A stretch of 64,000 bases of DNA, taken from Gillisia mitskevichiae. Its GTDB lineage: Bacteria > Bacteroidota > Bacteroidia > Flavobacteriales > Flavobacteriaceae. This document shows, one piece after another, positions 29,219 to 52,847 of the stretch. The notes beneath the pieces are model-generated. The model made no database searches. It saw only the letters and a program-made list of their open reading frames with translations, and was not told where the DNA came from. Where the stretch lies: contig NZ_RBLG01000001.1 in NCBI RefSeq assembly GCF_003634585.1, forward strand, positions 310,001 to 374,000, read 5' to 3'. How positions within the stretch are numbered: the first letter of the stretch is position 1; the number at the start of each line of letters is the position of its first letter. The position numbers were made by a program, and so were the translations under genes.

Positions 29219-32170
29219 CTAATCTCGCATTGCCTCATATAATACCTGCTGGATTTTAGTTCTAGTATTACTTTTATATAACAATGTATTGTCTCTTGTT
29301 GGCAGGACCCTGTTAGATAAAAATATGTATAAAAGGTTGGTCTCAGGGTCCATCCATACCATAGTTCCCGTAAAACCAGTATGTCCAAAACTGGAATTAC
29401 TAGCAGAAATTGCTGTGTTTCCATTTATAGAACGTTCTCCTAAAGAGGGTTTATCAAAACCTAAACCTCTTCTATTATTATTATCAGGAAATTGATATTT
29501 GGTAAATTCCTCCATTGTAGCTTCGGTAATATATTGCTCTTCTCCATAAGTACCTTTATTAAGATACATCTGCATTAATTTTGCAATGTCGTTTGCATTA
29601 GAAAAAAGTCCTGCATTGGCAGAAACACCGCTCATCATAATAGCTCCTTCATCATGCACAGTTCCACGAATTGCTTCTTTTCTAAAAAGAAAATCATTTT
29701 CCGTAGGCATAATTCTGTCAAGCTTATACTCTCGGTTAGGATTATATGTAAGAGTGCTTGCTCCTAATTTATCGTAGAATTTAGCATCTAAATAACTTGC
29801 GAAATCTTCTTTAGTCAAGTTTTCCACAAGACTTGGGAATAAATAAAAAGCTAAGCCAGAATAAAGATATTTCTGCTCTTTTTCTAATTTAGATTTTTTG
29901 ATCTGTTTAAAGATCTCTTTCTGATAATCTTTAAACAGCCACATATTCTCCGCGATCTTTATAGGAAATCTTGCTGAAGAATCCTTTTTAATGGTTTTCC
30001 ATTTATATGTTCCATTTTTTCTAAGTGTGGTTTTCCAATAAGGGATCCAAGGTTTAAAACCTGCTTGATGTGCCAAGATCTTCCTCATAGAAACACCTGC
30101 TTTATTAGAGTTTTTAAAATAAGGGAGATAGGTCTCTATTCCTTCTTCTAAACTGAACTTATTATCATCCTTCAGTTTCATTAAAGCTGGTAATGCTGAA
30201 GATATCTTAGTAACCGAAGCCAGATCATACAGGTCTGTCAATTTCACTTTTGTAGTGTCTGAATAACTTTGGTAGCCGTAAGCTTTATGAAATACCACCT
30301 TTTGATTCTTAGCAATCAAAATTTGTCCACCAGGAATAGCTTTTAGATCTATTGCTTGCTGCATCAAAGAATCAACTTTTCTATTTAAAAGTTCGGCATT
30401 CATATTTGCATCTTCTGGAAGGGTGTATTTAAATCTCATTCCTCCAGAAATATCTAAACCATCTCCTTCTTTAAATTTATCTCCAATACTTACCGGTAGT
30501 TTTCCATTTGCTCCTACTCCTCCAAAAATTAGTTGTGCTGCAAGGTCTTCAGAATTTTTACTGTCTTGGTAAGTGAGTATCAAGGACGAAACACTTTCGG
30601 CAACACCAAGGTTGTCCAACGAATATGGGTTCTTAAAAAATGTAAGTATGCTCTTCTTTTCTTTCGAAATTGATTTTAGGAAAGACTGTACATCTGCCGT
30701 GAGCTTCATGTTATTTCTAGGAAATTTGCTATCATCATGAATCCCAAGAATTACAAGATTGAAAGTAGAAAGTTGTTCTTTCACCGAATCCAATTCAGCA
30801 ATTGAAGCTTCATAGGGAATACTGAAATGCGCTATTTTTGTATATAGATCTAAGCTCTTCTGAAATTGATTGTCTTTATCGCCACCTATTGAAATAGCCG
30901 CAATTTTTAAAGTGTCTAGTTGCTGTAATGGCAATAAATCTGACTGATTTCTCAACACGGTTAAGGAAGCTTCCGTAAGATTTCTGTTTAAAAGTTCTGT
31001 TGAAGAGGAATTAAGATCCTTATCTATATTTTTTATATCGATTACTTTATACTTATCTAGACCCGCCCATTGTTTTATAGCGAGGATCTTTCTGCAACGT
31101 GCATCGATCTCTTTTTGAGAAATTAATCCTTGCTTGATCGCTTTTTTAATTTCTTCTATTGCTTTAGGAACTGCTACTGTAAATTCTAAAAGATCGTTCC
31201 CCGCGAGTATAGCATCCTTATCTACTTCTCCCGGAGTATGACCCTCAGTAACCCCTTTCATATTCATAGCATCGGTAACAATTAATCCCCGAAAGCCAAG
31301 TTCTTCTTTTAAAAGTCCAGAAATTATAGGTTTAGAAAGTGTAGATGGAACTCCTGTAGAATCTAATGCTGGAATATCTAAGTGAGCTACCATAACTCCT
31401 CCAATTCCTGCTTTTATTATCTCTCTAAAAGGGTACAACTCTGTTTCGTCTAGTCTTGCTCTAGAATGAGTTATTCTAGGTAAGGCATAATGAGAATCTG
31501 TATCTGTATCTCCATGCCCAGGGAAATGTTTTGCTGTTGGTAAAACTCCGGCATCCTGTAATCCAAGCATATAGGCGATTCCCTTTTCGGCTACATTTAT
31601 TTTATTCTCTCCAAAGGATCTAAAATTAATAACAGGATTTGCTGCATTGTTATTTACATCTACTACAGGCGCAAAGTTTAAATGTAATCCAACACGTTTT
31701 ATCTGTTTGGCAACTTCTACACCCATAGCATAGATCAAACTATCATTTTGAATAGCTCCCAAACTCATCTGGAATGGGTAGCTAATAGTACTATCTAAAC
31801 GCATTCCAAGTCCCCATTCCGCATCTATAGCCCCTAATAATGGCACTTTTGAAGCTTCTTGATATTCATTCATTTGGGTTACTTGGCGCACAGGTCCTCC
31901 TTGAAAAAAGATTAGTCCGCCAATCTTTTGTTCTTTAATCTGTTTTAGAATTTCTTGTTTATGTTCTTCTCCTCTATTAGAATAGGCAGCTACCATAATT
32001 AGTTGCGCGATCCTTTCTTCCTGAGATAAAGTTGCCATCACAGAGTCCACCCAAACACTATGTTCATATTGAACAAATTCTGGAACTTTCGCCTTAGTTT
32101 CCTGGGCAAAAATGTTAGCGCAAATATTGGTAATAAGAAAAAGTGTGGTGTAAAATTTAATAAATTTCAT
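29219..32170 (-). CDS. GH3 beta-N-acetylglucosaminidase fused to a serine beta-lactamase-fold domain (NagZ-AmiE-like)
   Basis: A 983-residue two-domain enzyme. The start is placed at MKFIKFYTTLFLITNICANIFAQ, a clear signal peptide; upstream in-frame codons add no signal. Residues about 40-390 are a NagZ-type GH3 barrel: KHFPGHGDTDTDSH (about 212-225) holds the histidine-containing catalytic loop of NagZ, and VTDAMNMKG (about 299) the aspartate nucleophile. A GH3 C-terminal-like alpha/beta region follows to about 580. Residues about 600-983 are a penicillin-binding/beta-lactamase fold with SVTK (about 652), YSG (about 770, usually YxN) and HTG (about 929). In B. subtilis separate NagZ and AmiE split GlcNAc and stem peptide from muropeptides; here one polypeptide could do both. 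The NagX-like gene is 43 bases upstream. Confidence 0.85.
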   Translation of the reverse strand: MKFIKFYTTLFLITNICANIFAQETKAKVPEFVQYEHSVWVDSVMATLSQEERIAQLIMVAAYSNRGEEHKQEILKQIKEQKIGGLIFFQGGPVRQVTQMNEYQEASKVPLLGAIDAEWGLGMRLDSTISYPFQMSLGAIQNDSLIYAMGVEVAKQIKRVGLHLNFAPVVDVNNNAANPVINFRSFGENKINVAEKGIAYMLGLQDAGVLPTAKHFPGHGDTDTDSHYALPRITHSRARLDETELYPFREIIKAGIGGVMVAHLDIPALDSTGVPSTLSKPIISGLLKEELGFRGLIVTDAMNMKGVTEGHTPGEVDKDAILAGNDLLEFTVAVPKAIEEIKKAIKQGLISQKEIDARCRKILAIKQWAGLDKYKVIDIKNIDKDLNSSSTELLNRNLTEASLTVLRNQSDLLPLQQLDTLKIAAISIGGDKDNQFQKSLDLYTKIAHFSIPYEASIAELDSVKEQLSTFNLVILGIHDDSKFPRNNMKLTADVQSFLKSISKEKKSILTFFKNPYSLDNLGVAESVSSLILTYQDSKNSEDLAAQLIFGGVGANGKLPVSIGDKFKEGDGLDISGGMRFKYTLPEDANMNAELLNRKVDSLMQQAIDLKAIPGGQILIAKNQKVVFHKAYGYQSYSDTTKVKLTDLYDLASVTKISSALPALMKLKDDNKFSLEEGIETYLPYFKNSNKAGVSMRKILAHQAGFKPWIPYWKTTLRKNGTYKWKTIKKDSSARFPIKIAENMWLFKDYQKEIFKQIKKSKLEKEQKYLYSGLAFYLFPSLVENLTKEDFASYLDAKFYDKLGASTLTYNPNREYKLDRIMPTENDFLFRKEAIRGTVHDEGAIMMSGVSANAGLFSNANDIAKLMQMYLNKGTYGEEQYITEATMEEFTKYQFPDNNNRRGLGFDKPSLGERSINGNTAISASNSSFGHTGFTGTMVWMDPETNLLYIFLSNRVLPTRDNTLLYKSNTRTKIQQVLYEAMRD

Positions 32171-32213
32171 ATTCAATAATAGGTTATAATAGTAAACCAT
32201 AGGTTTACCCAAT

Positions 32214-33341
32214 TTAAACTTTTATATAGATCTTCTTTTTGTCTAGCACATAACCAATAATCCACATGAGCAGCATAAAGCAAACGGCAAAAGCTATGGA
32301 TGCATTGTATTTGGAAAGCCAGCTTAAAAAAGCATTATTATAAATCCAAGGTTTTATGGAACCTCCATCTATCCATATAATGCTCATTAACATAGCTATT
32401 AAGCCAGACAGAACAAAAATGAAAAGAGGATTTCTTCCGAAAACCACAAAGAAATAGGTCCATTTTTTAAATTTCCAAATTTCAATAAGCAAGATCAAAG
32501 CTGCTATAAGAAGCAGATCCCAACCAATTGAGTATAGCACATAAGAGCTGGTCCAGATCCCTTTTATAATTGGGAAATATAGATCCCAGAATTTTGCAAC
32601 GATAAGTAATAAAAATCCGCTTAAGGCTAATTTCCATACGGTGGGAATTGTATTTCCGGAACGCTGAATGAAAATTCCGGCAATATACCCAGCCACCACA
32701 TTCACTATGGCTGGCAAAGTACTTAATAGTCCTTCTGGGTCAAAAGTTATTCCGAAACCTTTCCATAAATTATCCGGGTGGAATATTAAAAGGTCGAACT
32801 TTAGTGCTGCATTCCCTGCTAAACTAAATGGATCTGGAGGAGTTCCAAACCTATACATAAACCACCAATAAAGTAATAATATGTTTATACTTATAATAAG
32901 TGTTGCCTTAGTTTTTATATAATGAAGCATTAAACCAGCAATTAAATAACATATTGCAATTCTTTGTAATACGCCCATGATCCTCATTTGGGAAAGGTCT
33001 TTAAAAATGAATTCCCCAACTTCGTTTCTATAAACAAAAGGAAAAGCACTCATAAAAAGGCCAATAAAAAATATAAGAAGACTTCTGGTAAATATTTTCT
33101 TTAGAAAATCTTCTTCAGATTTCTCATCATATTTTCTAAGACTAAAGCTCATAGCATTGCCAATAACAAATAAAAATGTCGGAAAAACTAGATCTGTAGG
33201 TGTAAACCCTTGCCAAGCAGCATGTTTAAAAGGAGCATAAATATTAGACCAGCTACCAGGATTGTTAACTAATACCATTAAAGCAATAGTTAATCCTCGT
33301 AATACATCTAAGGCTAAATACCTTTGGGACCTTTTTATCAT
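32214..33341 (-). CDS. NagX/DUF5009-type multispan membrane protein (acyltransferase or MurNAc transporter)
   Basis: A 375-residue membrane protein with about ten hydrophobic segments. The N-terminus LALDVLRGLTIALMVLVNN, then GFTPTDLVFPTFLFVIGNAM, identifies the family variously called heparan-alpha-glucosaminide N-acetyltransferase-like, NagX or DUF5009. Members have been proposed to acetylate glucosamine across the membrane. I also recall a DUF5009 protein in Tannerella forsythia (MurT) reported as an inner-membrane MurNAc transporter beside murQ. With murQ, a NagZ-AmiE fusion and nagB nearby, the transporter reading is attractive here. Sequence alone cannot decide. It heads a two-gene leftward unit and is divergent from the ROK regulator. 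Confidence 0.75.
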   Translation of the reverse strand: MIKRSQRYLALDVLRGLTIALMVLVNNPGSWSNIYAPFKHAAWQGFTPTDLVFPTFLFVIGNAMSFSLRKYDEKSEEDFLKKIFTRSLLIFFIGLFMSAFPFVYRNEVGEFIFKDLSQMRIMGVLQRIAICYLIAGLMLHYIKTKATLIISINILLLYWWFMYRFGTPPDPFSLAGNAALKFDLLIFHPDNLWKGFGITFDPEGLLSTLPAIVNVVAGYIAGIFIQRSGNTIPTVWKLALSGFLLLIVAKFWDLYFPIIKGIWTSSYVLYSIGWDLLLIAALILLIEIWKFKKWTYFFVVFGRNPLFIFVLSGLIAMLMSIIWIDGGSIKPWIYNNAFLSWLSKYNASIAFAVCFMLLMWIIGYVLDKKKIYIKV

Positions 33342-33640
33342 AGAATAACTATCATGGCATTAAAAGTTCTATTCAAATTATTTTTTTAACTCCAAATAAA
33401 AAGAGAATCAACGTTTACTTATATTGAGCAAACCTAAGACGGATATTATTTGGTTTATTTTTAAAACGAATGCTTAAAAATATAAATTTTAATTAAATAA
33501 TCAATCTTTCATAAAAATTTTAATAAAGTCTTTTTTGAAATTAATTTTTTGCATATTTTTAATGAAAATTAATTCTTCCTTTTTTAAATTCAAAAGGACT
33601 CATCTTAATGACAAATTAAATTCAACTTTAAATTTTATTT
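33342..33640. promoter_or_regulatory. divergent control region of the nagX-like and ROK genes
   Basis: In this 299-base AT-rich gap, AATTAATTTT (33539-33548) and AAAATTAATT (33565-33574) form a perfect 10-bp inverted repeat about 66 bases before the ROK ATG, a candidate operator. A leftward TAGGTTTG box (complement of 33429-33436) matches TAnnTTTG 87 bases before the nagX-like ATG. Confidence 0.4.
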
Positions 33641-34912
33641 ATGTCGAAAGAATTACAGGAATTTTTCATCAATCATAATCCTACTCCAGGATTAAGTAAT
33701 GTTGAAAGAAAAAAATACCTTCAGAAAATAAGGATCATCAAACATCTTTATTTTAATGGAGCCAATACCAATGCCGATATATGCAATACTTTTAATGTGA
33801 GTCTTCCAACGACTATGTCTTTACTAAACCAATTGGTAGAAGATGGAATCGTTGCAAAACAAGGCCGAGGAGAATCTGTAGGTGGCAGAAAACCAGATCT
33901 TTTTGGTTTAAAGGAAAACACCTTTTTTGTGCTAAGTATTCATATTGAACGTTTCCAGATACAACTAGCAATTTTAGATAATACACATCAAATCCTATTC
34001 GAGAAAAATATTAGCACCATTATTTCTAAAGATTTTGATATTGTAAACATTTTACATCAGCATGCATCCGAGCTTATAGCTGAGTCTAAGATCAATTCAG
34101 ATAAATTAATGGGTATTGGAATTAGTATGCCCGGATTGGTTTCTTCAGAAAATGGTAAAAACTTCACTTATTTCCTAAAAGATCATCAACCTCAAGATCT
34201 GCAAAGTGAGTTTGAAAAAATATTCAATAAACCAGTAGCAATTTTAAATGATGCAAAAAGTGCCTGTTTAGCAGAATTTCGTTTAGGTCTTGCTAAGAAT
34301 AAGAATAACGTTTTGGTGCTTTCTATGGACTGGGGAATTGGTCTAGGAATTATAATGGGTGGAAAATTACATATGGGATCCTCTGGTTTTGCTGGAGAAT
34401 TTGGTCATATCCCATTAGTAGAAGATGGAGCATTATGCCATTGTGGGAAAAGAGGCTGTTTAGAAACTGTTGCCTCTGGAATTGCCTTGGTTAAAAAAGC
34501 GAAAGTGGGAATTGAAGCTGGGCAACATTCTATTTTAAAGGAAATGGTAAATGATGTGCTTGACGATCTAGAGCCTTCAATTATTATAGAGGCAGCCAAT
34601 CGCGGAGATCAGTTTGCAATAAATGTGCTCTCAGAAATTGGGATAAACCTTGGGAAAGGAATCGCAATTCTAATACAGATCTTTAACCCAGAACTTATAA
34701 TCTTAGAAGGAAAAATAGCTGAAGCCAAGCAGTTTATAACTACTCCCATACAGCAGTCTATAAATACATATTGTATGATTCAGCTAAAAGAACGTACAGA
34801 AATTTCACTATCTAAATTAGGTAAGAATTCAAGTTTATTAGGAGCTACTGTTGCTATTATGGATCATATTTTCAAACAACAAATTACAATGGCCAAGGCG
34901 CAACTTAAATAA
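33641..34912 (+). CDS. ROK-family transcriptional regulator (NagC-like)
   Basis: A 423-residue repressor-type ROK protein. An N-terminal winged helix (about residues 25-90: IRIIKHLYFNGANTNADICN, then VSLPTTMSLLNQLVEDGIV and GGRKPDLFGL) precedes the sugar-binding ROK domain. FAGEFGHIPL and the zinc motif CHCGKRGCLET (about 265-275) are intact. Where kinases have DxGGTK the sequence reads LSIHIERFQIQLAILD, so the phosphate-binding motif is lost and this is a regulator, not a sugar kinase. The likely inducer is an amino-sugar phosphate such as GlcNAc-6-P or GlcN-6-P, inferred from nagB 42 bases downstream and the divergent nagX-like/nagZ unit. Confidence 0.88.
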   Translation: MSKELQEFFINHNPTPGLSNVERKKYLQKIRIIKHLYFNGANTNADICNTFNVSLPTTMSLLNQLVEDGIVAKQGRGESVGGRKPDLFGLKENTFFVLSIHIERFQIQLAILDNTHQILFEKNISTIISKDFDIVNILHQHASELIAESKINSDKLMGIGISMPGLVSSENGKNFTYFLKDHQPQDLQSEFEKIFNKPVAILNDAKSACLAEFRLGLAKNKNNVLVLSMDWGIGLGIIMGGKLHMGSSGFAGEFGHIPLVEDGALCHCGKRGCLETVASGIALVKKAKVGIEAGQHSILKEMVNDVLDDLEPSIIIEAANRGDQFAINVLSEIGINLGKGIAILIQIFNPELIILEGKIAEAKQFITTPIQQSINTYCMIQLKERTEISLSKLGKNSSLLGATVAIMDHIFKQQITMAKAQLK

Positions 34913-34954
34913 CCACTTTACACTTTATTACCCAACATCCCGCAAAAACTTATT

Positions 34955-36874
34955 ATGGCAAGATTAAATCTACTTGAAGCAACACGTTATGAAAAATTAC
35001 CAGTAACGGTATTTGATAACGAAAAAGAAGCATCCAAAAGTGTTGCTAAAAGAATTTCAGCCCTTATTATAAAAAAACAAGAGCAAGGAGTTTCTGCTAT
35101 TTTAGGACTTGCTACAGGTGCAAGCCCGGTGGAAGTTTATAAAGAGCTGGTTAGAATGCATAAAGAAGAAGGTTTAAGTTTTAAAAATGTGATCACCTTT
35201 AATCTTGATGAATATTACCCAATGCAGCCCACAGCAGCTCAGAGCTATGTGACGTTTATGGAAGAAAATCTATTTAATCATATAGATATTCCAAAAGAGA
35301 ACATACATATTCCAGATGGGACATTACCAAAAGAAGATATTGCTGCTTTCTGCCTAGATTATGAAAATAAAATTGAAGAATTAGGTGGTTTAGATCTCCA
35401 AATCTTAGGTATTGGTAGAACAGGACATATTGGTTTTAACGAGCCGGGATCTGCTCCTAACTCTGGTACCAGGCTGGTAACTTTGGACGATCTTACCAGA
35501 AGAGATGCTTCCAGAGATTTTGGAGGTAAAGAAAATGTGCCCACCAAGGCTATAACCATGGGAATTGGTACCATTTTTAAGGCTAGAGAAATTATATTAT
35601 TGGCTTGGAGTAAGAAAAAAGCCAGTATTATTAAAAAAGCAGTAGAAGGAGAAATTTCAGGGAGTGTTCCCGCTACTTACTTACAACATTCAGATCAGGT
35701 TGAATTTATTCTGGATACAGATGCAGCTTCAGAATTAACGAGATTTAATACTCCTTGGTTAGTTAAAGATTGTATTTGGGATAACAGACTAATAAAAAAA
35801 GCTGTTATCTGGCTATCTTCTGAAGTTAACAAACCTATTCTAAAACTTACAGACGAGGATTACAATACCAACGGGATGGCACAATTAGTCACCGAGAAAG
35901 GGCCCGCGTACAATATAAACATCGAAGTTTTTAATACCCTACAACATAGTATAACTGGATGGCCCGGAGGAAAACCGAATTCCGATGAATCCCAAAGACC
36001 AGAACGAGCCGCACCTGCTCATAAAAGATCCCTTATTTTTTCACCGCATCCAGATGATGATGTTATTTCTATGGGAGGAACTTTTATAAGATTGGTAGAT
36101 CAAGGACATGATGTTCATGTTGCATATCAAACCTCTGGAAATACTGCAGTTTGGGATACAGATGTGCTTAGATATATGGAATTTGCTATAGACTTTAATA
36201 AAAGTATAGGAGACGATTCAAAAAAACTGGAAGGTATTTATGAAGAGATGCGAAGCTTTTTAAAGTCCAAACAACCCAATGAGATCGACTTGCCAGAGAT
36301 TAGAGAAGTTAAAGGTTTTATAAGAAAATCTGAAGCCTTTGCTGGAGCTAGGTTTGCAGGATTGGATGACAAAAACATTCATTTTATGGCCTTGCCTTTC
36401 TACGAAACAGGAAAGACCGTAAAAAATCCGGTTACAGAAAAAGATGTTCTTCTAACCATGGAACTTTTACAGAAGATAAAACCACATCAGATTTTTGCAG
36501 CAGGAGATTTTGCAGATCCTCATGGAACTCATATTGTATGCTTTAGAATTATTATCGAGGCCATGAACCGTCTAAGAAAAACCGAAGAGTGGACAAAAGA
36601 TTGTTGGCTTTGGATGTACAGAGGAGCTTGGCAAGAATTTGAAACCCATGAAATTGAGATGGCAGTACCGCTTTCTCCACAAGAAGTGGGTCGTAAAAGA
36701 AAAGCCATATTTCAGCATCAATCACAAAAAGATCATCCTGTATTCCCTGGCGATGATGAGCGGGAATTTTGGGTACGTGCACAGGAACGAAATAGTGAAA
36801 CCGCAATTAATTATCACAAATTAGGGCTGGCAGATTATGAAGCTATGGAAGCCTTTGTTCGCTGGAAATTTTAA
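34955..36874 (+). CDS. nagB: glucosamine-6-phosphate deaminase fused to a PIG-L/LmbE deacetylase domain
   Basis: A 639-residue two-domain protein. Residues about 1-270 are NagB, converting glucosamine-6-P to fructose-6-P and ammonia: GLATGASPVEVYKEL, FNLDEYY with the catalytic aspartate, and GIGRTGHIGFNEPGSAPNSG. A linker (about 270-355) leads to a C-terminal LmbE/PIG-L domain with SPHPDDDVISMGG (about 365-377, zinc-binding HPDD with Asp replacing the usual Glu) and DPHGTH (about 516-521) as the third metal site. PIG-L enzymes remove acetyl from GlcNAc derivatives, so the fusion could deacetylate and then deaminate GlcNAc-6-P. Such fusions occur in Bacteroidota; the second activity here is inference. 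No separate nagA is in the window. Confidence 0.93.
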   Translation: MARLNLLEATRYEKLPVTVFDNEKEASKSVAKRISALIIKKQEQGVSAILGLATGASPVEVYKELVRMHKEEGLSFKNVITFNLDEYYPMQPTAAQSYVTFMEENLFNHIDIPKENIHIPDGTLPKEDIAAFCLDYENKIEELGGLDLQILGIGRTGHIGFNEPGSAPNSGTRLVTLDDLTRRDASRDFGGKENVPTKAITMGIGTIFKAREIILLAWSKKKASIIKKAVEGEISGSVPATYLQHSDQVEFILDTDAASELTRFNTPWLVKDCIWDNRLIKKAVIWLSSEVNKPILKLTDEDYNTNGMAQLVTEKGPAYNINIEVFNTLQHSITGWPGGKPNSDESQRPERAAPAHKRSLIFSPHPDDDVISMGGTFIRLVDQGHDVHVAYQTSGNTAVWDTDVLRYMEFAIDFNKSIGDDSKKLEGIYEEMRSFLKSKQPNEIDLPEIREVKGFIRKSEAFAGARFAGLDDKNIHFMALPFYETGKTVKNPVTEKDVLLTMELLQKIKPHQIFAAGDFADPHGTHIVCFRIIIEAMNRLRKTEEWTKDCWLWMYRGAWQEFETHEIEMAVPLSPQEVGRKRKAIFQHQSQKDHPVFPGDDEREFWVRAQERNSETAINYHKLGLADYEAMEAFVRWKF

Positions 36875-43294: not shown

Positions 43295-43356
43295 ATAGTA
43301 ATTGATAATTATGAAACAAATTTTAAAATTAAAATCCAACAACCAAATAGTATTGG

Positions 43357-43398
43357 TAAAAAAGAAAGAGCCACAATATGTGTCTCTTTCTTTTTTTA
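43357..43398 (-). terminator. intrinsic terminator after the susC-susD-DUF4397 unit
   Basis: GAAAGAG (43364-43370) pairs with CTCTTTC (43384-43390), extended by A/T pairs outside and CACA/TGTG inside. Read leftward it ends in a T-run. It lies about 20 bases after the DUF4397 stop and separates that unit from the GHL10 gene. Confidence 0.75.
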
Positions 43399-44210: not shown

Positions 44211-44220
44211 AATTTTATAG

Positions 44221-45837
44221 TTATTCAGGTTTGCTAAACCAAGTTTCGTAAGTGTGATAATCTTCTTCAAATGCTCCAAGAACTTCTAATGCATCCTTGT
44301 TCCACATATATTCTGAATTATACCTTGGTCTTGCACGATATGCAGGTTTGTCATTATTGGTAAGGTATAACGGATCTGGTAATTCAAAGCCTTTATAAAC
44401 AGGATCAGCTGCATCAATATCATAATGATATCTTCTCATATCAGACCAAGTTTCAAAGAATGCCCATCCCCAAGTTGCAATATATTTTTGCAACATGATC
44501 TTAGACAAGGTTAACTCTGCAGTTGTTACCGGATATAATTCTTCGCTAGTTAAATAAGTAGCTTTTCTTTCTTCAAATAACGCAGGATCTGGCGCATATT
44601 GCTTAGCAAAATCCATATGTGCATTTACACCAGCTTGATAAGCCGTAAGTGCTACATCATTTTTATTAGAGATAAATGCAGCTTCTGCTTTAATAAATTG
44701 AAGTTGTGCATAAGTCATTAATGGAAATCTTGCATCATTATTGAAGAAATAGATCTGTGGAGATGGAGTCTCTCCTGAATAACCTTCTTCGTTCCAGAAA
44801 TTCTTAGGAACAAGATCCGATTCTGCTGCAGACCATTCGTTAATTCCAACAACTGGAGAAATCCCTCTATATTTCCCATCTGGAGATGGTGCCATCATTG
44901 CAGTTATTCTTGGATCTTTTAAGTGCTCTTCACTGTTTTCTACAAGTGGATCTGCCCCTATTAAACTAGGATCTGTTAGCTCTGGATTTGTACCATCAAG
45001 TAAACCAATCATAAATTTTGTTTGTCGGTAACGCCCGATATTTCCTCTACGTGGGCCAAAGAAATTCGTATTGGAACTAACTGTTCCATCAAAAGATATA
45101 CTAGCATCGTCTTGATTTCCAGATAAAGCCATATCTACATAACCAATTACTTCATCGGCATTATAAGAACTCTTATTTGTAAGTCTGTGTGCATTAATTG
45201 CAAGTAATCCATAAGCGAATTTCTTCCATTTATCACGATCTCCGTTATAAATAAGATCTGCTTGACTTAGGCCAGAATCCTGAGGACTTAATCCATCTGT
45301 TCTTTCTAAGTTTTCAATACCTAAAGCTAAAAGTCTCTGAATTTCTGCATAAACTTCTTCTTGATCGTCATAGTTAAAAACTCGTTGATCTGAATTAAAT
45401 GCTTCAGAAACAATAACTGGTCCATGATAATCTGTTAGCATTTGCCATCCATATGCTCTTAGAATATAACCAACTCCTACAAAATCGTATTTTTCATTGA
45501 TCATTCCACTCTCTATCATATCAGATAGATTGTATCCCATACTCCAGTATACTGCTCTCCATAATTGAGCATAAGAATCTGATAATGGATTACTATGTAA
45601 ATTCAAAGAATAAGACTCTCCTGAGGAATAAGCCCAGTTTTGAGTATAAAATCCTGTGAACCTTCCATCCCATTGTATTGCCACAGCCAATTCCGACTGA
45701 ATTTGTGGGAGAAATAGATCTGGCTGCAAAAGGGCATCCGGACCATTTGGGTTTGTGTTTACGTCTATATAATCGTCACAACCAGAAAAGGTAAGTGTGC
45801 CGGCTATCATTAAACATGTGTATAATATTTTTTTCAT
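44221..45837 (-). CDS. SusD/RagB family nutrient-binding outer-membrane lipoprotein
   Basis: A 538-residue lipoprotein (MKKILYTCLMIAGTLTFSGC, cysteine at 20) that forms the lid of the SusC channel and binds ligand outside the cell. DDYIDVNTNPNGPD after the signal, TPR-like helices (LWRAVYWSMGYNLSDMIE, VGVGYILRAYGWQMLTDYHG, FAYGLLAINAHRLTNKSSYN), PLMTYAQLQFIKAEAAFIS and the C-terminal ARPRYNSEYMWNKD are typical of the RagB/SusD class. It is 12 bases downstream of susC. Ligand unknown; the flanking genes point to murein glycan or amino-sugar oligomers. Confidence 0.92.
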   Translation of the reverse strand: MKKILYTCLMIAGTLTFSGCDDYIDVNTNPNGPDALLQPDLFLPQIQSELAVAIQWDGRFTGFYTQNWAYSSGESYSLNLHSNPLSDSYAQLWRAVYWSMGYNLSDMIESGMINEKYDFVGVGYILRAYGWQMLTDYHGPVIVSEAFNSDQRVFNYDDQEEVYAEIQRLLALGIENLERTDGLSPQDSGLSQADLIYNGDRDKWKKFAYGLLAINAHRLTNKSSYNADEVIGYVDMALSGNQDDASISFDGTVSSNTNFFGPRRGNIGRYRQTKFMIGLLDGTNPELTDPSLIGADPLVENSEEHLKDPRITAMMAPSPDGKYRGISPVVGINEWSAAESDLVPKNFWNEEGYSGETPSPQIYFFNNDARFPLMTYAQLQFIKAEAAFISNKNDVALTAYQAGVNAHMDFAKQYAPDPALFEERKATYLTSEELYPVTTAELTLSKIMLQKYIATWGWAFFETWSDMRRYHYDIDAADPVYKGFELPDPLYLTNNDKPAYRARPRYNSEYMWNKDALEVLGAFEEDYHTYETWFSKPE

Positions 45838-45849: not shown

Positions 45850-48800
45850 TTAAAATCCAACTCTCATTCCAATATTCAATCCTCTTGGTAACGGGAAGTT
45901 ACCATAATCCAGTCCAGCTCCTCCTGCTCCACCAACTGCAGCAGAATTTCCACTTGCTACTGGGTCTAGACCAGAATAATTAGTCCACAAAAATAGATCT
46001 GTTCCAGTTACAAATACGCTAGCTGATCTAATAAATTTAGCTCTTTCTAAAGCACTTGCAGGGAAGTTATAACTAAGTGTTACATCTCTTAAACGCATCC
46101 AGTTTATATCCTTCTCTATGAAACTTTGGTGAGGATAAATAGAAGACCAATAAGTTGAGTTTCTATACAAATCTATTGGAATATTGTTCTCTGTAGGAGT
46201 TCCAGTATTCTCGTTTCCGTCTTTTAAAACTCCTGTTACAATTCTTGGAGTTTCTCTATCTAAAGTTCTTTTACTTAAACCTCTAGTTGTTAAATAATGT
46301 TCGGTAGCATTATATACATCTCCTCCTACACGAAAATCCAATAAGAAATTTAGTGAAAGATTCTTATATCTCAAAGAGTTGGTAACTCCCATTGTAAAAT
46401 CTGGGTTTCTGTCTCCAACCACTATCCATTCACTAGTATCTAATAATGGTAATCCATTAGAAGGATTAATTAATACATCCCCCTGCTCGTTTCTTTCATA
46501 ATCGTATCCAGTAAATGTTGTTAAAGATCCTCCAACTCTAGATCCTACACGTACATTCCCGTATAACCAAGTATCGGAATTATAGAATTCTGATACATCT
46601 CCAGGAAGGCTTACAAGTTCACTCCAGTTTTTAGTGTAGTTTGCTAAAACATCCCAAGAAAAGTTTTCAGTTTCTACAGGAGTCGCATTTAATTGAAGTT
46701 CGATTCCCTCATTTTGGATCTCCCCTGCATTAAAAGTCATAAGTACAAATCCAGTTGCATAACTAAGTCTAAGGTTTTGTACAATTTGATCTACAGAATT
46801 CTTATTGAAATAAGTTGCATCTATACCTAATTTATTATTAAATAATTTCAACTCTATTCCATATTCATAAGAAGTTGTCATCTCTGGTTTTAAATCTAAA
46901 CTAGGTCCTGTAAATCCATAACGGAAACCACCACCTGTGGTTAGCGCGTTGGTGTAGAAAGGACGAATACTATAAGGTCTTGCATCTTTTCCTACCTGTG
47001 CTACAGAGGCTCTTAACTTTCCATAAGTTAAAACATCTTTAAATGGTTTAAGAGCTTCAAGTTCTGTAAAAATAAAACTTAGACCTGCTGAAGGGTAGAA
47101 GAAAGAGTTGTTCTTTTTAGGCAATGTAGAACTCCAGTCATTTCTACCTGTTAAAGTAAGGTAAAGCATGTTATCGTAACTAGCATTTAAACTAGCAAAT
47201 GCTCCTACTAGACGACGTTCAGTTAAATTATTAAAAGCTCTATGCGTATCTAGATCTGTATTGTTGATAGACCATAGATCTGGCGCCTGAAAGTCTTGAC
47301 CACCAGCCGCTGCACTAAAGGTATTGTAATCGTAAACCGCACTACCAATTTTTATATCTGTTTTAAGCTTATCGTTAAAAAGATTTGGAGGAGTGATCTG
47401 GGTATAGTACTGGAAAGTAAGGTTTCTCGTAGTAACCAATGCTTGATCGAAAATTCCTCCATAATCTTTACCTGTATTAGATTCTGGATGTCTTACTATG
47501 GTGTTTTTTGTTGTGAAATAATCTACTCCCACCTGTCCAACAAATTTTAACCACTTTAATGGAGTTGCAGTAACTTGTGTATTCAGTTTATATCTATCTG
47601 TTAATGAGTTGAAAATATTCTTGTTTACATTGAAGAAAGGATTTTCTACTGCATTCGAGTAATCTGCATAATCTCTTCTAGCTCCACCAGGAGTTAAATA
47701 ATTACTTGCATCATCTGTAGAAGGCCAAAGTAATAAGTGTAATAATGGTCCTCCAGACCCTCTAAAGGTTTGATCATTATCAGATCGTGTATAATCGAAA
47801 GTTACATCTGCCGAAAGAAAGTCGTTAAACTCTGCAGTGATCGCAGTAGAAAGATTCAACTTCTCCAATCCTGTAGTAGGAACAAATCCTTCTGCATCTG
47901 TATGAGAAGCAGAAATTCTATATTGACTCTTCTCATTACCACCAGAAATGGAAAGGTTATGTTTTTGAGTGTATGCATCTTGAAAGAAATTCTTTACATT
48001 ATCGTAGAATTTCGTTCCTTCAGGATAAGGTTCTCCAAAATAATACAATTCCTCATTTCCTTCGTTGGTATAACCACCTGCACCTCTATCATAGGTTTGT
48101 TGAATATCAGGGTATTCAACAATTCTGTCTATTCTAAAGCTATTGCTATAATCTATACGAGTTTTACCCGCTTTTCCTCTTTTTGTTGTAATAACTATTG
48201 CTCCAGATGCCGCTTCAATACCATATAATGCTGCTGCTTCTGGCCCTTTTAAGATAGTTACAGATTCTATATCTTCTGGATTAATATCTGCTGCTCTGTT
48301 TGTAAAATCTACCCCTCTATTGTCAAATGAAGTTCCAGAAACAGAAGATGCGAATATCGCCGTAGAGGTTGTGTTATTACTAATTGGCAAACCATCTACC
48401 ACAAATAATGGCTGGTTACTACCACTTAAGGAACTTATCCCTCTAATTACGATAGAAGTAGATGCTCCAGGAAGCCCAGAAGTACTATTAACTTCTACCC
48501 CTGCAACTCTACCTGCTAGACCATTCACAAAGTTTTCACGTTGTGTTTCGGCAATAGCTTCACCTTTAATTTCGGTAACAGAGTATCCAAGAGCTTTTTT
48601 CTCTCTCTTAATCCCCAAGGCAGTTACCACCACTTCATCTAATCCTTCTAGATTTTCTACTAGAGTAACATTAAATGTTGTTTGAGTTCCTAGCTTGAGT
48701 TCTTGCGTATCAAATCCCAAAGAAGAGATCACTAATATAGCATCAATATTTTCTGGAGCATTCAAGGTGAATTTTCCGTCCATGTTTGTTACGGTACCTT

Positions 48801-48942
48801 TATTTGTATCTTTTATATATACTGAAGCACCAGTAACCGGCAAACCTTTCCCATCCATGACTGTACCAGTCAACATCCGCTCTTGGGCAAATGCCTGCAT
48901 TCCAATAAAGCAGAGTAAAATTAAGAGTAATCGTTTTTCCAT
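45850..48942 (-). CDS. SusC/RagA family TonB-linked outer-membrane transporter
   Basis: A 1030-residue TonB-dependent transporter. Signal peptide (MEKRLLLILLCFIGMQAFAQ), carboxypeptidase-regulatory-like domain (about 22-105: LTGTVMDGKGLPVTGASVYI), TonB-box-like segment (LDEVVVTALGIKREKKALGY), plug domain (about 115-235: LAGRVAGVEVNSTSGLPGAS, PLFVVDGLPISN, AALYGIEAASGAIVITTKRG) and a 22-strand-type barrel ending in NIGMRVGF with terminal Phe. It begins a unit with susD and DUF4397. The murQ stop is 171 bases upstream, with no obvious terminator or exact -7 box between, so read-through from murQ is possible. Confidence 0.94.
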   Translation of the reverse strand: MEKRLLLILLCFIGMQAFAQERMLTGTVMDGKGLPVTGASVYIKDTNKGTVTNMDGKFTLNAPENIDAILVISSLGFDTQELKLGTQTTFNVTLVENLEGLDEVVVTALGIKREKKALGYSVTEIKGEAIAETQRENFVNGLAGRVAGVEVNSTSGLPGASTSIVIRGISSLSGSNQPLFVVDGLPISNNTTSTAIFASSVSGTSFDNRGVDFTNRAADINPEDIESVTILKGPEAAALYGIEAASGAIVITTKRGKAGKTRIDYSNSFRIDRIVEYPDIQQTYDRGAGGYTNEGNEELYYFGEPYPEGTKFYDNVKNFFQDAYTQKHNLSISGGNEKSQYRISASHTDAEGFVPTTGLEKLNLSTAITAEFNDFLSADVTFDYTRSDNDQTFRGSGGPLLHLLLWPSTDDASNYLTPGGARRDYADYSNAVENPFFNVNKNIFNSLTDRYKLNTQVTATPLKWLKFVGQVGVDYFTTKNTIVRHPESNTGKDYGGIFDQALVTTRNLTFQYYTQITPPNLFNDKLKTDIKIGSAVYDYNTFSAAAGGQDFQAPDLWSINNTDLDTHRAFNNLTERRLVGAFASLNASYDNMLYLTLTGRNDWSSTLPKKNNSFFYPSAGLSFIFTELEALKPFKDVLTYGKLRASVAQVGKDARPYSIRPFYTNALTTGGGFRYGFTGPSLDLKPEMTTSYEYGIELKLFNNKLGIDATYFNKNSVDQIVQNLRLSYATGFVLMTFNAGEIQNEGIELQLNATPVETENFSWDVLANYTKNWSELVSLPGDVSEFYNSDTWLYGNVRVGSRVGGSLTTFTGYDYERNEQGDVLINPSNGLPLLDTSEWIVVGDRNPDFTMGVTNSLRYKNLSLNFLLDFRVGGDVYNATEHYLTTRGLSKRTLDRETPRIVTGVLKDGNENTGTPTENNIPIDLYRNSTYWSSIYPHQSFIEKDINWMRLRDVTLSYNFPASALERAKFIRSASVFVTGTDLFLWTNYSGLDPVASGNSAAVGGAGGAGLDYGNFPLPRGLNIGMRVGF

Positions 48943-49113
48943 AATTTGAATCTATTTAATAAACTGTTATTGATTTTTATTTAAATACACACTTAATTCC
49001 TAAAATATTAGACTTAATAATTTTAGATTTATAATATTAGTAAAAAAAACACAATTAACGTTAAAATTTCAAAGTAATAGTTAAACTTCTTTAAAATTTT
49101 TAGTTAAGTGGTC

Positions 49114-49926
49114 TTATTTTTTATGATTTTGGATCGCTAAACGCACATTTTTGTACTTCTCCAGTAATTTTGAGGCTTCATCTTCTTCTATATTTAATTC
49201 CTCCATGATCATTTTAATTCCACGATCTACCAGTTTATTATTAGATAGCTGCATGTCTACCATTTTGTTCCCTTTTACTCTTCCTAATTTGATCATTACT
49301 GCTGTAGAGATCATATTAAGTACCAATTTTTGAGCAGTCCCAGATTTCATCCTTGTGCTCCCAGTAACAAATTCTGGCCCTACTACTATTTCTATAGGGA
49401 ATTCTACAGCTTCTGAAAGTGGTGAATCTGCGTTATTGGTGATACAACCTGTAATTAACCCGTTCTCTCTTGCCCTCTTAACTCCTCCAATTACATAAGG
49501 AGTTGTCCCGGAAGCTGCTATTCCTATTACAACATCGTTTTCCGTGATATTATATTCTTTAAGATCTTCCCACGCCTGATTCTTATTATCCTCCGCATTT
49601 TCTACCGCCTTCCTTAAAGCTACATCTCCCCCAGCAATCAAACCTATTATCACATTGTCTGATACTCCAAAAGTAGGTGGACATTCAGATGCATCTAACA
49701 CACCTAATCTTCCGCTAGTTCCTGCACCTATATAAAAAAGCCTTCCTTGACTGCTTGAAATTTTTGAGGCTATTACATCTACCAGCTTTTCAATATTTGG
49801 TAATATTTTCTCTATTGCTTCCGCTACTTTTTTATCTTCATTATTAATATTGGTTAATAATTGAAGGGTGTCCATCTTTTCCAGATCATTATAAAGGGAG
49901 CCTTGCTCTGTTGTTCTTTTATTCAT
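49114..49926 (-). CDS. murQ: N-acetylmuramic acid 6-phosphate etherase
   Basis: Cleaves the D-lactyl ether of MurNAc-6-P to give GlcNAc-6-P and lactate, the step specific to murein sugar catabolism. The 270-residue SIS-domain protein has YIGAGTSGRLGVLDASECPP (about 62-81) and IGIAASGTTPYVIGGV with the phosphate-binding serines, then GPEFVTGSTRMKSGTAQKLV, the diagnostic MurQ signature, and a C-terminal helical part. Its presence is the strongest anchor for the murein-scavenging reading of the region. It lies 56 bases downstream of the GH20 gene. The MurNAc kinase needed upstream of it was not found in the window. Confidence 0.96.
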   Translation of the reverse strand: MNKRTTEQGSLYNDLEKMDTLQLLTNINNEDKKVAEAIEKILPNIEKLVDVIASKISSSQGRLFYIGAGTSGRLGVLDASECPPTFGVSDNVIIGLIAGGDVALRKAVENAEDNKNQAWEDLKEYNITENDVVIGIAASGTTPYVIGGVKRARENGLITGCITNNADSPLSEAVEFPIEIVVGPEFVTGSTRMKSGTAQKLVLNMISTAVMIKLGRVKGNKMVDMQLSNNKLVDRGIKMIMEELNIEEDEASKLLEKYKNVRLAIQNHKK

Positions 49927-49982
49927 AGATGTGAATTATATTCATTGTAGATAATAATTTTAATTGTTTTTTATTGAACTTA

Positions 49983-51536
49983 TTAGTTCATAGTATCGTT
50001 CCAATTTAATTCTAGCGAAGGATAATAATTAATTCCTAAGGCTTCCAATCTTGACTTGTGTTGTTTCAAACGTTGCGTAAATTCCTTAAAGTCATTATGA
50101 GATTGAGACCAGCCAATTTCTGCAACCGCAATTAACCTTGGCCATAGTCGATTATCTAGCATAGCATCTGTTACTACCAATTCTGTCCAAACAGGAGCTT
50201 CTACCCCGATAATCTCTTCTTCCTTATCTTTAAAATTGTAAACATCTTCTAAAGAAACTCCTGTTTTCTTGCACCAATTATTTGTATTCTCCTGGCCTGT
50301 TACATTTGCATGGTCCAAATAAAAACTCGTGCAAATAGATTCAATGACTTTAGATTTATTTAAGGGAGCGGTTTTTCCATTCCACCGCTGACTAATAAGT
50401 TCTTTACTAACTTTTGCCTTAGAAACTTCTTCCCAGCCAATAGGTGTTTTTCCATTGCTTCTAACAATAGAATCTGCTTTAACAACAAAGGTTTTATAGA
50501 GATCATCTTTAATTTCGTCGCCACCAATATGTATCCATGGACCATCAGTTAATTCTGATACTTCTTGAAGAACATCTGCTACAAAATTATAAGTCTCTGG
50601 ATTTGTTAAACATAATTTGCTCCAACCCACCTTATAACCATCAAACAATTCTGGTGGTGAAACCATTTTCGGGTTGAGATTACTAAGTGCTTCACAGTTA
50701 AGTTCTGGATATGAAACTAGAGCTGCATAAATATGCCCCGGAAGATCTATTTCTGGAATAATAACAATATGGTTTTGCTTTGCATAAACTTGTAATTCCT
50801 TATATTCTTCAATAGATAAATACCCTGATCTTCCATTTTTAACCGAACCTTTTGCTCCAATTTCAGTTAGCCGTGGTTTGCTTTTTAATTGCAATCTCCA
50901 GCCTTGATCATCTGTTAAATGTAGATGAAGACGGTTCATTTTATAAAGAGCCATTCTATCCAAATGAGCTTTGAGATACTCAACTCCAAAATAACTACGT
51001 GCAATATCAATCATGCTTCCTCTCCAAGTATACTTTGGAGAATCTTGAAGATGAAGCTTTGGAAGCGTGATTTTTCTAGAGTTAAAAGAACCATCTTCTA
51101 AACCTGCAGGCAAAAGCTGTCTTAGACTCTGAATTCCGTAGAAAAGTCCAGTTTCTCCTACTGCCTTAATAATTACCCCGTTTTCATTAATATCTAAAAT
51201 ATAGCCTACTGCTCCTAACTGCTTCTCTAAAGATAGATCTGCGATCAATTTAAAATTTCCACTATCTGAATTATCTTTGATAACAGTATTTAAATTAGCC
51301 TTTTGAAGTAATTCTTTGAGCAATTCCGCAGCAATTATACTAGATCCTGAAAAGGAAATATTATTGACTTTTGGTAGAACATAAGTCCCATCATTAATAG
51401 CTAAAATTTGTGGTTTTGGAATAATTGCAATCGAAGAATTACTTGTATTATTTGCGATGAATGAATTTGAGGTGGAACAGCCAAATGTAAAGACTACCAA
51501 AAATAATAATAGAATGTTTTGAATAAAGCACTTCAC
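49983..51536 (-). CDS. beta-N-acetylhexosaminidase (GH20), lipoprotein
   Basis: A 517-residue exo-enzyme that removes terminal GlcNAc or GalNAc. It starts at GTG (complement of 51534-51536) with a lipoprotein signal (MKCFIQNILLLFLVVFTFGC). The GH20b domain (about 35-165, NENGVIIKAVGETGLFYGIQ) precedes the GH20 barrel (about 170-500): WRGSMIDIARSYFGVEYLK, LHLHLTDDQGWRL, IIPEIDLPGHIYAAL, and the catalytic Asp-Glu pair in HIGGDEIKDD (about 335-345), with WNGKTAPLNKS later. It is shorter than enzymes carrying C-terminal binding domains. Operon order is permease-GH20-murQ, so GlcNAc released outside can be taken up by the permease. Confidence 0.94.
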   Translation of the reverse strand: MKCFIQNILLLFLVVFTFGCSTSNSFIANNTSNSSIAIIPKPQILAINDGTYVLPKVNNISFSGSSIIAAELLKELLQKANLNTVIKDNSDSGNFKLIADLSLEKQLGAVGYILDINENGVIIKAVGETGLFYGIQSLRQLLPAGLEDGSFNSRKITLPKLHLQDSPKYTWRGSMIDIARSYFGVEYLKAHLDRMALYKMNRLHLHLTDDQGWRLQLKSKPRLTEIGAKGSVKNGRSGYLSIEEYKELQVYAKQNHIVIIPEIDLPGHIYAALVSYPELNCEALSNLNPKMVSPPELFDGYKVGWSKLCLTNPETYNFVADVLQEVSELTDGPWIHIGGDEIKDDLYKTFVVKADSIVRSNGKTPIGWEEVSKAKVSKELISQRWNGKTAPLNKSKVIESICTSFYLDHANVTGQENTNNWCKKTGVSLEDVYNFKDKEEEIIGVEAPVWTELVVTDAMLDNRLWPRLIAVAEIGWSQSHNDFKEFTQRLKQHKSRLEALGINYYPSLELNWNDTMN

Positions 51537-51557
51537 CTTTTATCTATTTTAAAATTT

Positions 51558-52847
51558 TTATTTGGTTCTAATTTTATGGCCCTTACTAGCGAAAAACAAG
51601 ATATAAGCATAACAAGGGATCACGATCCAATATGCATTCTGCGGATTCACAATATCTGCAAGGTATCCGTAAAGAGGCGGTAGTACTGCTCCACCGGCAA
51701 TTGCCATAATTAAGAAGGAAGATCCTATTTTGGTAAACCTTCCTAAGCCTGCTATAGACATTGGCCAGATTGCCGGCCAAACCATGGCATTCCCTAATCC
51801 TAATAGGGAAATAAATAATACCGAAACAAAACCATCTGTAAAGATTGCTCCAAGTCCGAATATGATCCCTATAATAGCAGAGATTTTCAATGCTTTTTCT
51901 TGAGAGAGGTATTTTGGAATAGTGAGAATTCCAATTATATACCCAACCAGCATAGCGATCAAGGTGTAAGTAGTAAAGAATTTTGCATTTACAAATGAGA
52001 TGCCTTGAGCTACCCCATAACTTATTACAGTATCTCCAGCAATTACTTCTACCCCTACATACAAGAAAAGTGCAAAGGCTCCCATTAATAAGTGAGGGAA
52101 TTGAAAAATACTTGTTTTTTTACTATTTGTAGTAGCAAGTTCTTCATCTTCTTGCTCTGTGTCTACTTCTGGTAAAGTTGAAAAATAGATCATAATGGCA
52201 AGCACTATTAATACTGCCATCATTATTAAATATGGAAATACCACTCTTTCTGAAAGTAGGTCTAGTTCTGCTATTTTTTGCGCCACCGGCATTACTTTAA
52301 GATTTTCAACTAATGCGTCTACATCCTTAAGCGCTACAGCACCCAGAATTATTGGAGCAATGGCACCAGCGATCTTATTACAAATTCCCATGATGCTAAT
52401 TCGTTTAGCAGCACTTTCTATTGGTCCCAGAATGGTAACATATGGATTTGCAGCCGTTTGAAGTATCGCTAATCCGGTTCCTTGAACAAATAATCCCAAC
52501 AGGAATAATTCATAGGTTCGAGAATAAGCTGCAGGTACAAATATTAAAGATCCAGCTGCCATGACGAGCAAGCCTAAAGACATTCCCTTTTTAAAACCTG
52601 TCTTTTTCAAGATCCAGGCAGATGGCAAAGCCATAACTAAATAAGCGATATAAAATGCGAAGGCAACTAAATACGCTTCAAAGTTATTTAGCTCACATGC
52701 AATTTTTAGATATGGAATAAGTACCGAATTTAACCAGGTAACAAAACCGAAGATAAAAAAGAGTGCTCCAATTATAATTATGGAACGATTGGTTCCTGTA
52801 TTTTCATTTTTATGCGAAGCAGTATCTGAAATAGATTGATTTTTCAT
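51558..52847 (-). CDS. sugar MFS transporter (FucP/NagP type)
   Basis: A 429-residue, 12-helix inner-membrane permease. Diagnostic segments are FFIFGFVTWLNSVLIPYLK, LVMALPSAWILKKTGFKKGM and TAANPYVTILGPIESAAKRI, which are typical of the FucP/GluP/NagP group. Proteins of this type beside nag genes import N-acetylglucosamine. The gene leads the leftward permease-GH20-murQ unit; GlcNAc or MurNAc is the probable cargo, by context. An AAACGTTT palindrome lies about 125 bases upstream of its start. Confidence 0.88.
   Translation of the reverse strand: MKNQSISDTASHKNENTGTNRSIIIIGALFFIFGFVTWLNSVLIPYLKIACELNNFEAYLVAFAFYIAYLVMALPSAWILKKTGFKKGMSLGLLVMAAGSLIFVPAAYSRTYELFLLGLFVQGTGLAILQTAANPYVTILGPIESAAKRISIMGICNKIAGAIAPIILGAVALKDVDALVENLKVMPVAQKIAELDLLSERVVFPYLIMMAVLIVLAIMIYFSTLPEVDTEQEDEELATTNSKKTSIFQFPHLLMGAFALFLYVGVEVIAGDTVISYGVAQGISFVNAKFFTTYTLIAMLVGYIIGILTIPKYLSQEKALKISAIIGIIFGLGAIFTDGFVSVLFISLLGLGNAMVWPAIWPMSIAGLGRFTKIGSSFLIMAIAGGAVLPPLYGYLADIVNPQNAYWIVIPCYAYILFFASKGHKIRTK

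Follow-up and report, generated by a model that had tools for sequence, protein, structure and literature searches.

How would fragments of murein (peptidoglycan) cross the outer membrane of a bacterium that carries genes for their breakdown? The question is raised by an island at positions 29219-52847 of a 64,000-nucleotide stretch of Gillisia mitskevichiae DNA (contig NZ_RBLG01000001.1; hereafter the window), where genes for a SusC channel, its SusD partner (together SusCD) and a DUF4397 lipoprotein stand among murein and amino-sugar genes, including those for the N-acetylmuramic acid (MurNAc) 6-phosphate etherase MurQ and a GHL10 glycanase. An earlier note had listed these genes and proposed that a Sus-type importer actively harvests murein; Pfam and NCBIfam searches located each gene named there within the interval. 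The island is two-layered, consisting of a murein-recycling core and a separable SusC–SusD–DUF4397 cassette. In our preferred reading, which we hold to be fairly probable, the core and the optional import cassette make up a locus for peptidoglycan fragments that resembles a polysaccharide-utilization locus (PUL); SusCD would probably take up murein fragments, to judge from the neighboring genes. As for the proposed harvest, conserved and partly co-regulated murein genes were found, but they do not form one unit, SusCD being separable and lacking between murQ and ghl10 in five sister genomes.

A murein-recycling core and a separable cassette

The window belongs to a 3.59-Mb genome (G000) of the genus Gillisia, family Flavobacteriaceae; other genomes and loci carry G and L numbers where they must be told apart. 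Gene content, conservation, modular presence or absence, the shared promoter motif and the lipobox residues were computed. Loci were annotated with profiles built in this analysis, partly from the same loci, and counts refer to the fetched stretches.

The core comprises murQ, ghl10 and the epimerase, NlpC/P60, GH3 and NagP genes, beside lepA. Within the genus, MurQ and GHL10 were each found in 14 of 16 genomes. The murQ gene adjoins ghl10 (gaps of about 60–300 bp), with no SusCD between them, in G580, G581, G583, G585 and G599, while the SusC–SusD–DUF4397 cassette occupies the same junction in G000, G582, G584 and G111, the last a genome of the same genus in which a second pair (type B, see below) follows the cassette. 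In G586 (locus L086) two other SusCD pairs, one of type B, lie between murQ and ghl10; in G598, G589 and G590 the region is either rearranged or interrupted by contig breaks. The flanks are largely constant: lepA lies on the murQ side in most Gillisia islands, and dusB on the far side in the window, G111, G580, G583, G585, G589, G598 and Salegentibacter, being absent from the G581 stretch. Because murQ and ghl10 meet without an intervening SusCD in five sister genomes, SusCD is a module that can be separated from the core.

This module mostly has its own terminator-like hairpin. Ten junctions were folded, and beside the window seven of the nine others gave stems (G584, G111, L010, L011, L014, L015 and L016); none was seen at G582 and L013. 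The window hairpin (43358..43396) was not listed by a pattern scan for terminators. A single operon running from SusC to NlpC had been considered and was dropped once the hairpin 3' of DUF4397 was found. An Rfam scan of positions 26000-55000 gave no matches.

The sodium symporter (SSF) gene accompanies SusCD in all five Gillisia genomes that have SusCD at the junction. It was also found in G581, G589 and G590; no copy was detected in the G580, G583, G585, G598 and G599 stretches, the last a 7-kb contig.

SusCD lineages beside murein genes

A search with the window SusD gave matches in six of 199 family genomes, of which four were close, counting the genome of the window itself, and 41 loci in a named collection. 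The lineage of the window, type A, occurs in 16 genomes: Gillisia (four), Gelidibacter (four), a Leeuwenhoekiella metagenome-assembled genome (MAG), Salegentibacter, Zunongwangia (two), Pontibacter (three) and Rufibacter. These hosts span two families, Flavobacteriaceae and, for Pontibacter and Rufibacter, Hymenobacteraceae. In a quick tree of 93 SusD rows, from which short hit-only loci and G584 (split over two stretches) were left out and in which L026 and L077, being one contig, were counted once, the 15 type-A rows formed a single clade with a support of 100 in the Shimodaira–Hasegawa-like approximate likelihood ratio test (SH-aLRT). With G584 they make up the 16 genomes, several of which are close relatives (the four Gelidibacter, the three Pontibacter).

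At least one murein gene lies near the type-A SusD in 16/16 genomes, GHL10 in 15/16 and MurQ in 10/16. As a control, 20 loci were drawn randomly from among 49 further SusD-like_2 loci in the genus and its relatives and scored for seven markers: MurQ, GHL10, NamZ, the epimerase, NlpC, the amidase and a MurT-like SSF. None of the seven was present in 19 of the 20, and the lone exception, L086, is the same island in G586, another species, with other SusCDs. GHL10 thus marks 15 of 16 type-A loci versus one of 20 controls (Fisher p 4e-8), a comparison in which the 16 include close relatives and some type-A stretches reach 37 kb versus at most 20 kb for the controls. Two candidate markers were discarded: GH20, which is present in two of the 20 controls, and MurQ alone, for which 169 of 199 family genomes pass the cut-off. 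Of 20 MurQ loci hand-picked on long contigs, 18 lacked a strongly scoring match to any other island gene (SSF or SusC matched weakly in L116, L120, L126 and L128; several stretches end at contig ends), and the remaining two, L121 and L129, are other murein clusters with different SusDs.

Other lineages show the same association. Type-B SusD was found at six loci, of which five are murein-linked. Among these five, type A is present as well at L009, L018 and L019, which leaves only L078 and L086 as evidence for type B alone. In a related clade of Bacteroidales type, made up largely of MAGs, six of ten genomes show a murein link, with MurQ, a major facilitator superfamily (MFS) permease, NamZ and SSF in L025, NamZ, GHL10 and SSF in L028, and NamZ, NlpC and the epimerase in L027. 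The different SusDs of L121 and L129 lie near MurQ, NamZ and SSF. NamZ is unlinked in the window's genome; G582, Salegentibacter and Pontibacter have it within the island or close by. Conservation of the whole cluster, as the earlier note had envisaged it, was found for its murein part, chiefly GHL10 and less so MurQ. No GH20, ROK, NagX or NagP was detected in those fetched stretches of Pontibacter (L016-L018) and of the Bacteroidales type in which murein genes are retained.

The nearest solved relative of the SusC by sequence is BT_2264 (442 bits), a likeness compatible with a glycopeptide ligand and also with a plain peptide. A structural model of the SusD was not used to read a substrate (mean predicted local distance difference test score 63.8, long parts below 50); glucan-, chitin- and peptide-type SusDs alike were among its Foldseek matches.

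Further proteins were noted in these loci. A GH9 protein is encoded in each of three murein-SusCD loci, in Gillisia lutea (L080:17654-19468), Pontibacter (L016:14209-16068) and a Prevotella MAG (L028:14746-16632), possibly with murein or glucosaminide rather than cellulase activity. DUF6259 proteins occur near MurQ, SSF, NamZ and different SusDs in two other family genomes (L121:7225-9600, L129:13134-15416). Recurrent GH9 and DUF6259 proteins could be undescribed murein glycanases. A protein combining a metallophosphoesterase with a BamB-like beta-propeller is present in two murein-SusCD loci (L080:13450-15288, L016:17718-19604), and the MurQ/NamZ/SusCD cluster of L121 encodes a GH18 protein with a type IX secretion system sorting tail (12170-13633), a candidate secreted glycanase. 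Proteins of an FAD- and Fe-S-containing 2-hydroxyacid dehydrogenase type (L121:14921-17839, L027:13347-16379) could oxidize the D-lactate freed by MurQ; NCBIfam gave only D-2-hydroxyglutarate dehydrogenase- or GlcD-type matches under cut-off, and the assignment as D-lactate dehydrogenase was left as a lead.

Predicted regulation, membrane sides and enzyme order

The features of the island are collected in Table 1. Their identities come from Pfam and NCBIfam searches on the window proteins and vary in strength by gene: the curated NCBIfam cut-offs are passed by MurQ, SusC and NagB-LmbE, and are not reached by NagX, NagP and the epimerase models. The NagX-like protein had no Pfam match at 0.001.

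Table 1. Features of the island, with window positions, strand and the supporting match
Feature	Position	Strand	Evidence
GH3 (NagZ-type, N+C) + beta-lactamase-fold fusion	29219..32212	-	Pfam GH3 255 bits, beta-lactamase 146
NagX/DUF5009-like membrane protein	32214..33341	-	NF046061 160.6 bits, under its 480 cut-off
Predicted ROK operator, 25-bp dyad, between nagX and ROK	33505..33529	.	motif search
ROK-family repressor (NagC-like), probable local regulator	33641..34912	+	ROK 203 bits, HTH_24
NagB-PIG-L(LmbE) fusion, glucosamine-6-phosphate deaminase + putative deacetylase	34955..36874	+	NF002557 1059 bits, over cut-off
Amidase_2 lipoprotein, predicted periplasmic face	36888..37832	+	PF01510 113 bits
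YkfC/DPP-VI-type NlpC/P60 + SH3 lipoprotein	37908..39137	-	3npf 275 bits, 3h41 100 bits; VDCSG motif
MR_MLE epimerase, probable L-Ala-D/L-Glu epimerase	39154..40173	-	NCBIfam DgcA 224, YcjG-type 150 bits, both under cut-off
SSF sodium symporter, MurT candidate (MurNAc uptake)	40195..41643	-	SSF 104 bits
GHL10 glycanase lipoprotein, predicted periplasmic	41663..43342	-	PF02638 216 bits
Terminator-like hairpin with U-run, 3' of SusCD cassette	43358..43396	-	-20.5 kcal/mol, z -5.5
DUF4397 lipoprotein, SusE-like position, predicted surface	43419..44279	-	PF14344 51.7 bits
SusD (SusD-like_2), predicted surface lid	44221..45837	-	PF12771 139.6 bits
SusC TonB-dependent channel	45850..48942	-	TIGR04056 670 bits
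Predicted ROK operator in susC promoter	49085..49109	.	motif search
MurQ, MurNAc-6-phosphate etherase	49114..49926	-	TIGR00274 330.7 bits, over cut-off 302
GH20 beta-N-acetylhexosaminidase lipoprotein	49983..51536	-	PF00728 265 bits
NagP/GluP-type MFS, probable GlcNAc permease	51558..52847	-	NagP model 407 bits, under 625; gluP subfamily model over cut-off

An expectation-maximization (EM) motif search on promoters of other genomes, from which the window was excluded, returned a dyad of 25 bp, nCTTTnnTAAAAnTTTTAnnAAAGn. A matrix from the ROK/nagX sites of four other genomes scored 25.1 at the ROK/nagX site of the window and 17.6 in its susC promoter (next 13.4); conversely, a matrix from the susC-promoter sites of three other genomes scored 25.6 at susC and 20.7 at ROK/nagX (next 11.2). 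The best operator scores of 17 control loci were 8.3-15.9. Apart from a match in G581 taken up below, stretches without ROK (G580, G583, G585, G599) scored 8.9-13.8, and G598 and G589, which have ROK and no type-A cassette, 21.7 and 22.6. No further site with fewer than two mismatches to a pattern written from the two window sites was present genome-wide. Because the motif is common to both promoters, ROK/nagX and susC are suggested to belong to one regulon. A third operator at nagP is not claimed, its window score of 13.3 lying within the control range. In L086 a ROK-type site (18.3) stands upstream of the first susC.

The sides of the membrane were predicted from the residues after the lipobox, scored by a simple rule as acidic and so like the Flavobacterium lipoprotein export signal (LES), for which the F. 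johnsoniae consensus is SDDFE (PMC5080379). The window SusD (C-DDYID) comes close to this consensus, and when every SusD type is counted, with sister clades and duplicates, 20 of 37 rows are LES-like; the Pontibacter SusDs (C-KDYLD) fail the rule. DUF4397 (C-DENAI) is LES-like in 12 of 16 rows and the NlpC/P60 protein in 11 of 17. None of 23 lipobox-bearing GHL10 rows is (nine further rows have no lipobox), nor any of 13 amidase rows, two of whose lipobox calls are doubtful; GH20 has a lipobox and no LES. These patterns suggest that SusD and DUF4397 face outside and that the GHL10 glycanase and the amidase face the periplasm, while the NlpC/P60 peptidase may be at the surface. The main glycanase and the amidase thus probably act after import, not before. 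The amidase, labeled 'AmpD-like' earlier, is probably not a cytoplasmic AmpD, since the lipobox indicates probable export.

The nearest solved GH3 N-acetylglucosaminidases to the fusion protein are 6k5j and 3bmx. Its motifs are KHFPGHGDTDTDSH, SVTK and YLN, with HTG also present; we take SVTK as SxxK, YLN as YxN and HTG to carry their usual meaning in this fold. The true start of the fusion is probably an internal ATG (MKFIKFY), and the protein is probably exported. An 'AmiE' label for its beta-lactamase domain is plausible; the best NCBIfam match of that domain is PBP4B, under cut-off. The NlpC/P60 protein resembles by sequence the structures of DPP-VI (3npf) and of 3h41, which we take to be YkfC. 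The sole PDB sequence match of GHL10 is Cwp19 (237 bits), for which lytic transglycosylase activity on murein has been reported (PMC6016235). The SSF is a candidate MurT, because MurT of Tannerella forsythia belongs to the sodium symporter superfamily (PMC5790795) and SSF homologs occur near MurQ and NamZ in L025, L121 and L129. A second SSF of the window's genome (L057, G000:C2:984181-985614) is 53% identical to it; the profiles used found no murein genes around that gene.

Substrate, transport, enzyme order, sides of the membrane and regulator ligand are inferred from these data, and the following route is proposed. SusD, as a lid at the surface, and DUF4397 would capture soluble murein fragments (muropeptides or short glycans), which SusC would import with TonB. 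In the periplasm the lipoprotein amidase would remove stem peptides and GHL10 would cleave the glycan; the NagZ-type GH3 fusion and GH20 would trim N-acetylglucosamine (GlcNAc), and the YkfC-type peptidase would trim peptides there or at the surface. The MurT-like SSF would then carry MurNAc, and NagP GlcNAc, inward. A kinase encoded elsewhere together with MurQ would yield GlcNAc-6-phosphate, which the NagB-LmbE fusion would take towards fructose-6-phosphate, while the epimerase would salvage L-Ala-D-Glu. The ROK repressor, sitting on the dyad operator and released by an amino-sugar signal, would control the nagX/ROK units; its control would extend to the SusCD cassette in roughly half of the tested islands.

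Competing readings and known systems

Several observations weigh against this route. A clear surface endo-hydrolase was not seen in the island and no kinase is among its proteins; candidates elsewhere in the genome are a PF01869 kinase at G000:C3:292378 and AnmK at C4:1832. An own-genome search for AmpG with the L025 permease as query, run without a positive control, was empty. The nearest solved relative of the SusC is part of a peptide importer (PMC7782687). In the nearest other SusD branches, which are L074, the outgroup closest to type A, and a clade of eight rows (L021, L069-L073, L075, L076), none of nine loci has murein markers, so that a SusC–SusD–DUF4397 set of this kind is not intrinsically murein-linked; four of ten Bacteroidales-type genomes also lack the markers. 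Seven proteins near SusCD in four of the nearest-branch loci comprise a DeoR regulator, a DUF4397 protein and unrelated or unnamed ones (in L069 a DeoR-family regulator precedes the SusC–SusD pair). MurQ is absent from the fetched stretch in six of 16 type-A genomes (the four Gelidibacter, L013 and L020), and the listed MurQ of G013 is on another contig; the genes are to this extent scattered in relatives, an outcome that the earlier note would have counted against its proposal. The terminator-like hairpin parts the cassette from ghl10, and the two need not form one operon. As to the motif, the EM total of 300 exceeds the 250-290 of 12 shuffles, run with fewer rounds, by a modest margin, and the sites behind both cross-test matrices were chosen by one joint EM run. 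A strong susC site is present in four of eight islands with ROK and SusCD (G000, G582, G586 and Salegentibacter), the site is weak in L013 and none was found in G584, G111 and Zunongwangia atlantica, while G581 gave an unrelated match of 17.4.

The best-surviving alternative, though an unlikely one, is a locus for GlcNAc glycans (chitin oligosaccharides or N-glycans), whose ROK, NagP, NagB-LmbE, GH20, NagX and SusCD would be devoted to GlcNAc polymers, the murein genes being mere neighbors. ROK, NagP, NagB, GH20 and NagX are genes of the GlcNAc type, the operator motif is common to ROK/nagX and susC, GH20 stands in two of the 20 control SusD loci (L084 and L090, one with NagB-LmbE), and distant SusD relatives (Niastella and others) also lie near GH20. 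Nevertheless, SusCD of Pontibacter and of the murein-linked Bacteroidales type sits with GHL10, NamZ, MurQ or SSF in stretches where GH20, ROK and NagP were not found, and the G584 stretch has the cassette without GH20. Moreover, GH18 is absent among the island proteins, and chitin-binding SusDs in the PDB are only distant (about 20% identity).

It is less probable still that SusCD serves pure recycling and only recovers turnover fragments leaked by the cell itself. The remaining genes are indeed a recycling core, and the island MurQ is the only match in the genome at E 1e-40 or better. As five sister genomes have this core without SusCD, however, SusCD is not needed for recycling, and its patchy occurrence among family genomes is what would be expected of a niche trait. 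Least likely of all is that SusCD imports peptides or another compound and stands in the island by accident, as the peptide-type BT_2264 (PMC7782687) and the marker-free nearest branches would allow, for type A in two families, and Bacteroidales-type relatives besides, recur near murein genes, L078 and L086 carry type B in the same island, and there is the shared operator motif.

Uptake of murein fragments by an optional SusCD cassette hence remains our preferred reading. Linked as it is to MurQ, GHL10 and a MurT-like symporter, the conserved cassette is a concrete, deletable candidate for the outer-membrane passage of murein fragments. If the reading is true, cell-wall material would join the nutrients handled by Sus-type systems, with a bearing on the turnover of dead bacterial biomass, and murQ–ghl10 with and without the cassette would offer a natural comparison within one genus. 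More tentatively, and at somewhat less than even odds in our estimate, murein may be a true class of PUL substrate in Bacteroidota as a whole. Several distinct lineages of SusCD (type A, type B, the Bacteroidales type, and those of L121 and L129) would then have been recruited independently to a murein-salvage core, so that foreign cell-wall fragments would have a widespread route through the outer membrane; promoter–SusC–SusD–DUF4397–terminator cassettes would be exchangeable and partly tuned to amino sugars by ROK.

Among known systems, the NagP and NagX GlcNAc genes of Shewanella, to which the NCBIfam model names point, have counterparts here that score under the family cut-offs and are joined by murein genes. 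The MurNAc salvage cluster of T. forsythia (MurT, MurK, MurQ, AmpG) shares with the island MurQ, over its cut-off, a candidate MurNAc transporter of the sodium-symporter type and the MurNAc-6-phosphate route (PMC5790795, PMC7670621), and a comparable cluster in the MAG locus L025 includes SusCD. The island differs in having neither MurK nor AmpG among its proteins, its sole MFS protein being NagP-like, and in adding an outer-membrane SusCD, ROK, GlcNAc genes and murein hydrolases. For T. forsythia, a MurNAc auxotroph whose MurNAc has an unclear origin, the available text of PMC7670621 names inner-membrane importers only and no outer-membrane importer. RmNag3 of Rhodothermus marinus has the same GH3 and beta-lactamase-domain architecture, a signal peptide and a proposed role in murein metabolism, but is a single enzyme active on acetyl-chitooligosaccharides (PMC6987092). 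The NagZ–AmiE muropeptide rescue of Bacillus subtilis likewise has an external NagZ-type step and a beta-lactamase-fold domain; it differs in phosphotransferase-system uptake in a Gram-positive organism without SusCD (PMC6987092).

Sus-type PULs, among them the BT2261-2264 peptide complex and the NanOU system for sialic acid, have in common with the island a SusC/SusD pair, predicted surface lipoproteins and linked hydrolases (PMC7782687, PMC3969230). Adjacent susC and susD are present here, and GHL10, the amidase, GH3, GH20 and NlpC are linked enzymes. The linked genes of the island point to murein, and its regulator is ROK, no SusR, hybrid two-component or extracytoplasmic-function sigma factor-type gene being seen among its proteins. 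With NanOU, a Sus-type pair is known that handles an acidic amino sugar (PMC3969230). In agreement with the earlier note, a SusCD system for murein was not recognized among the matches listed in the open-licence literature. The parts of the island are of known kinds; their combination and the proposed substrate assignment are new.

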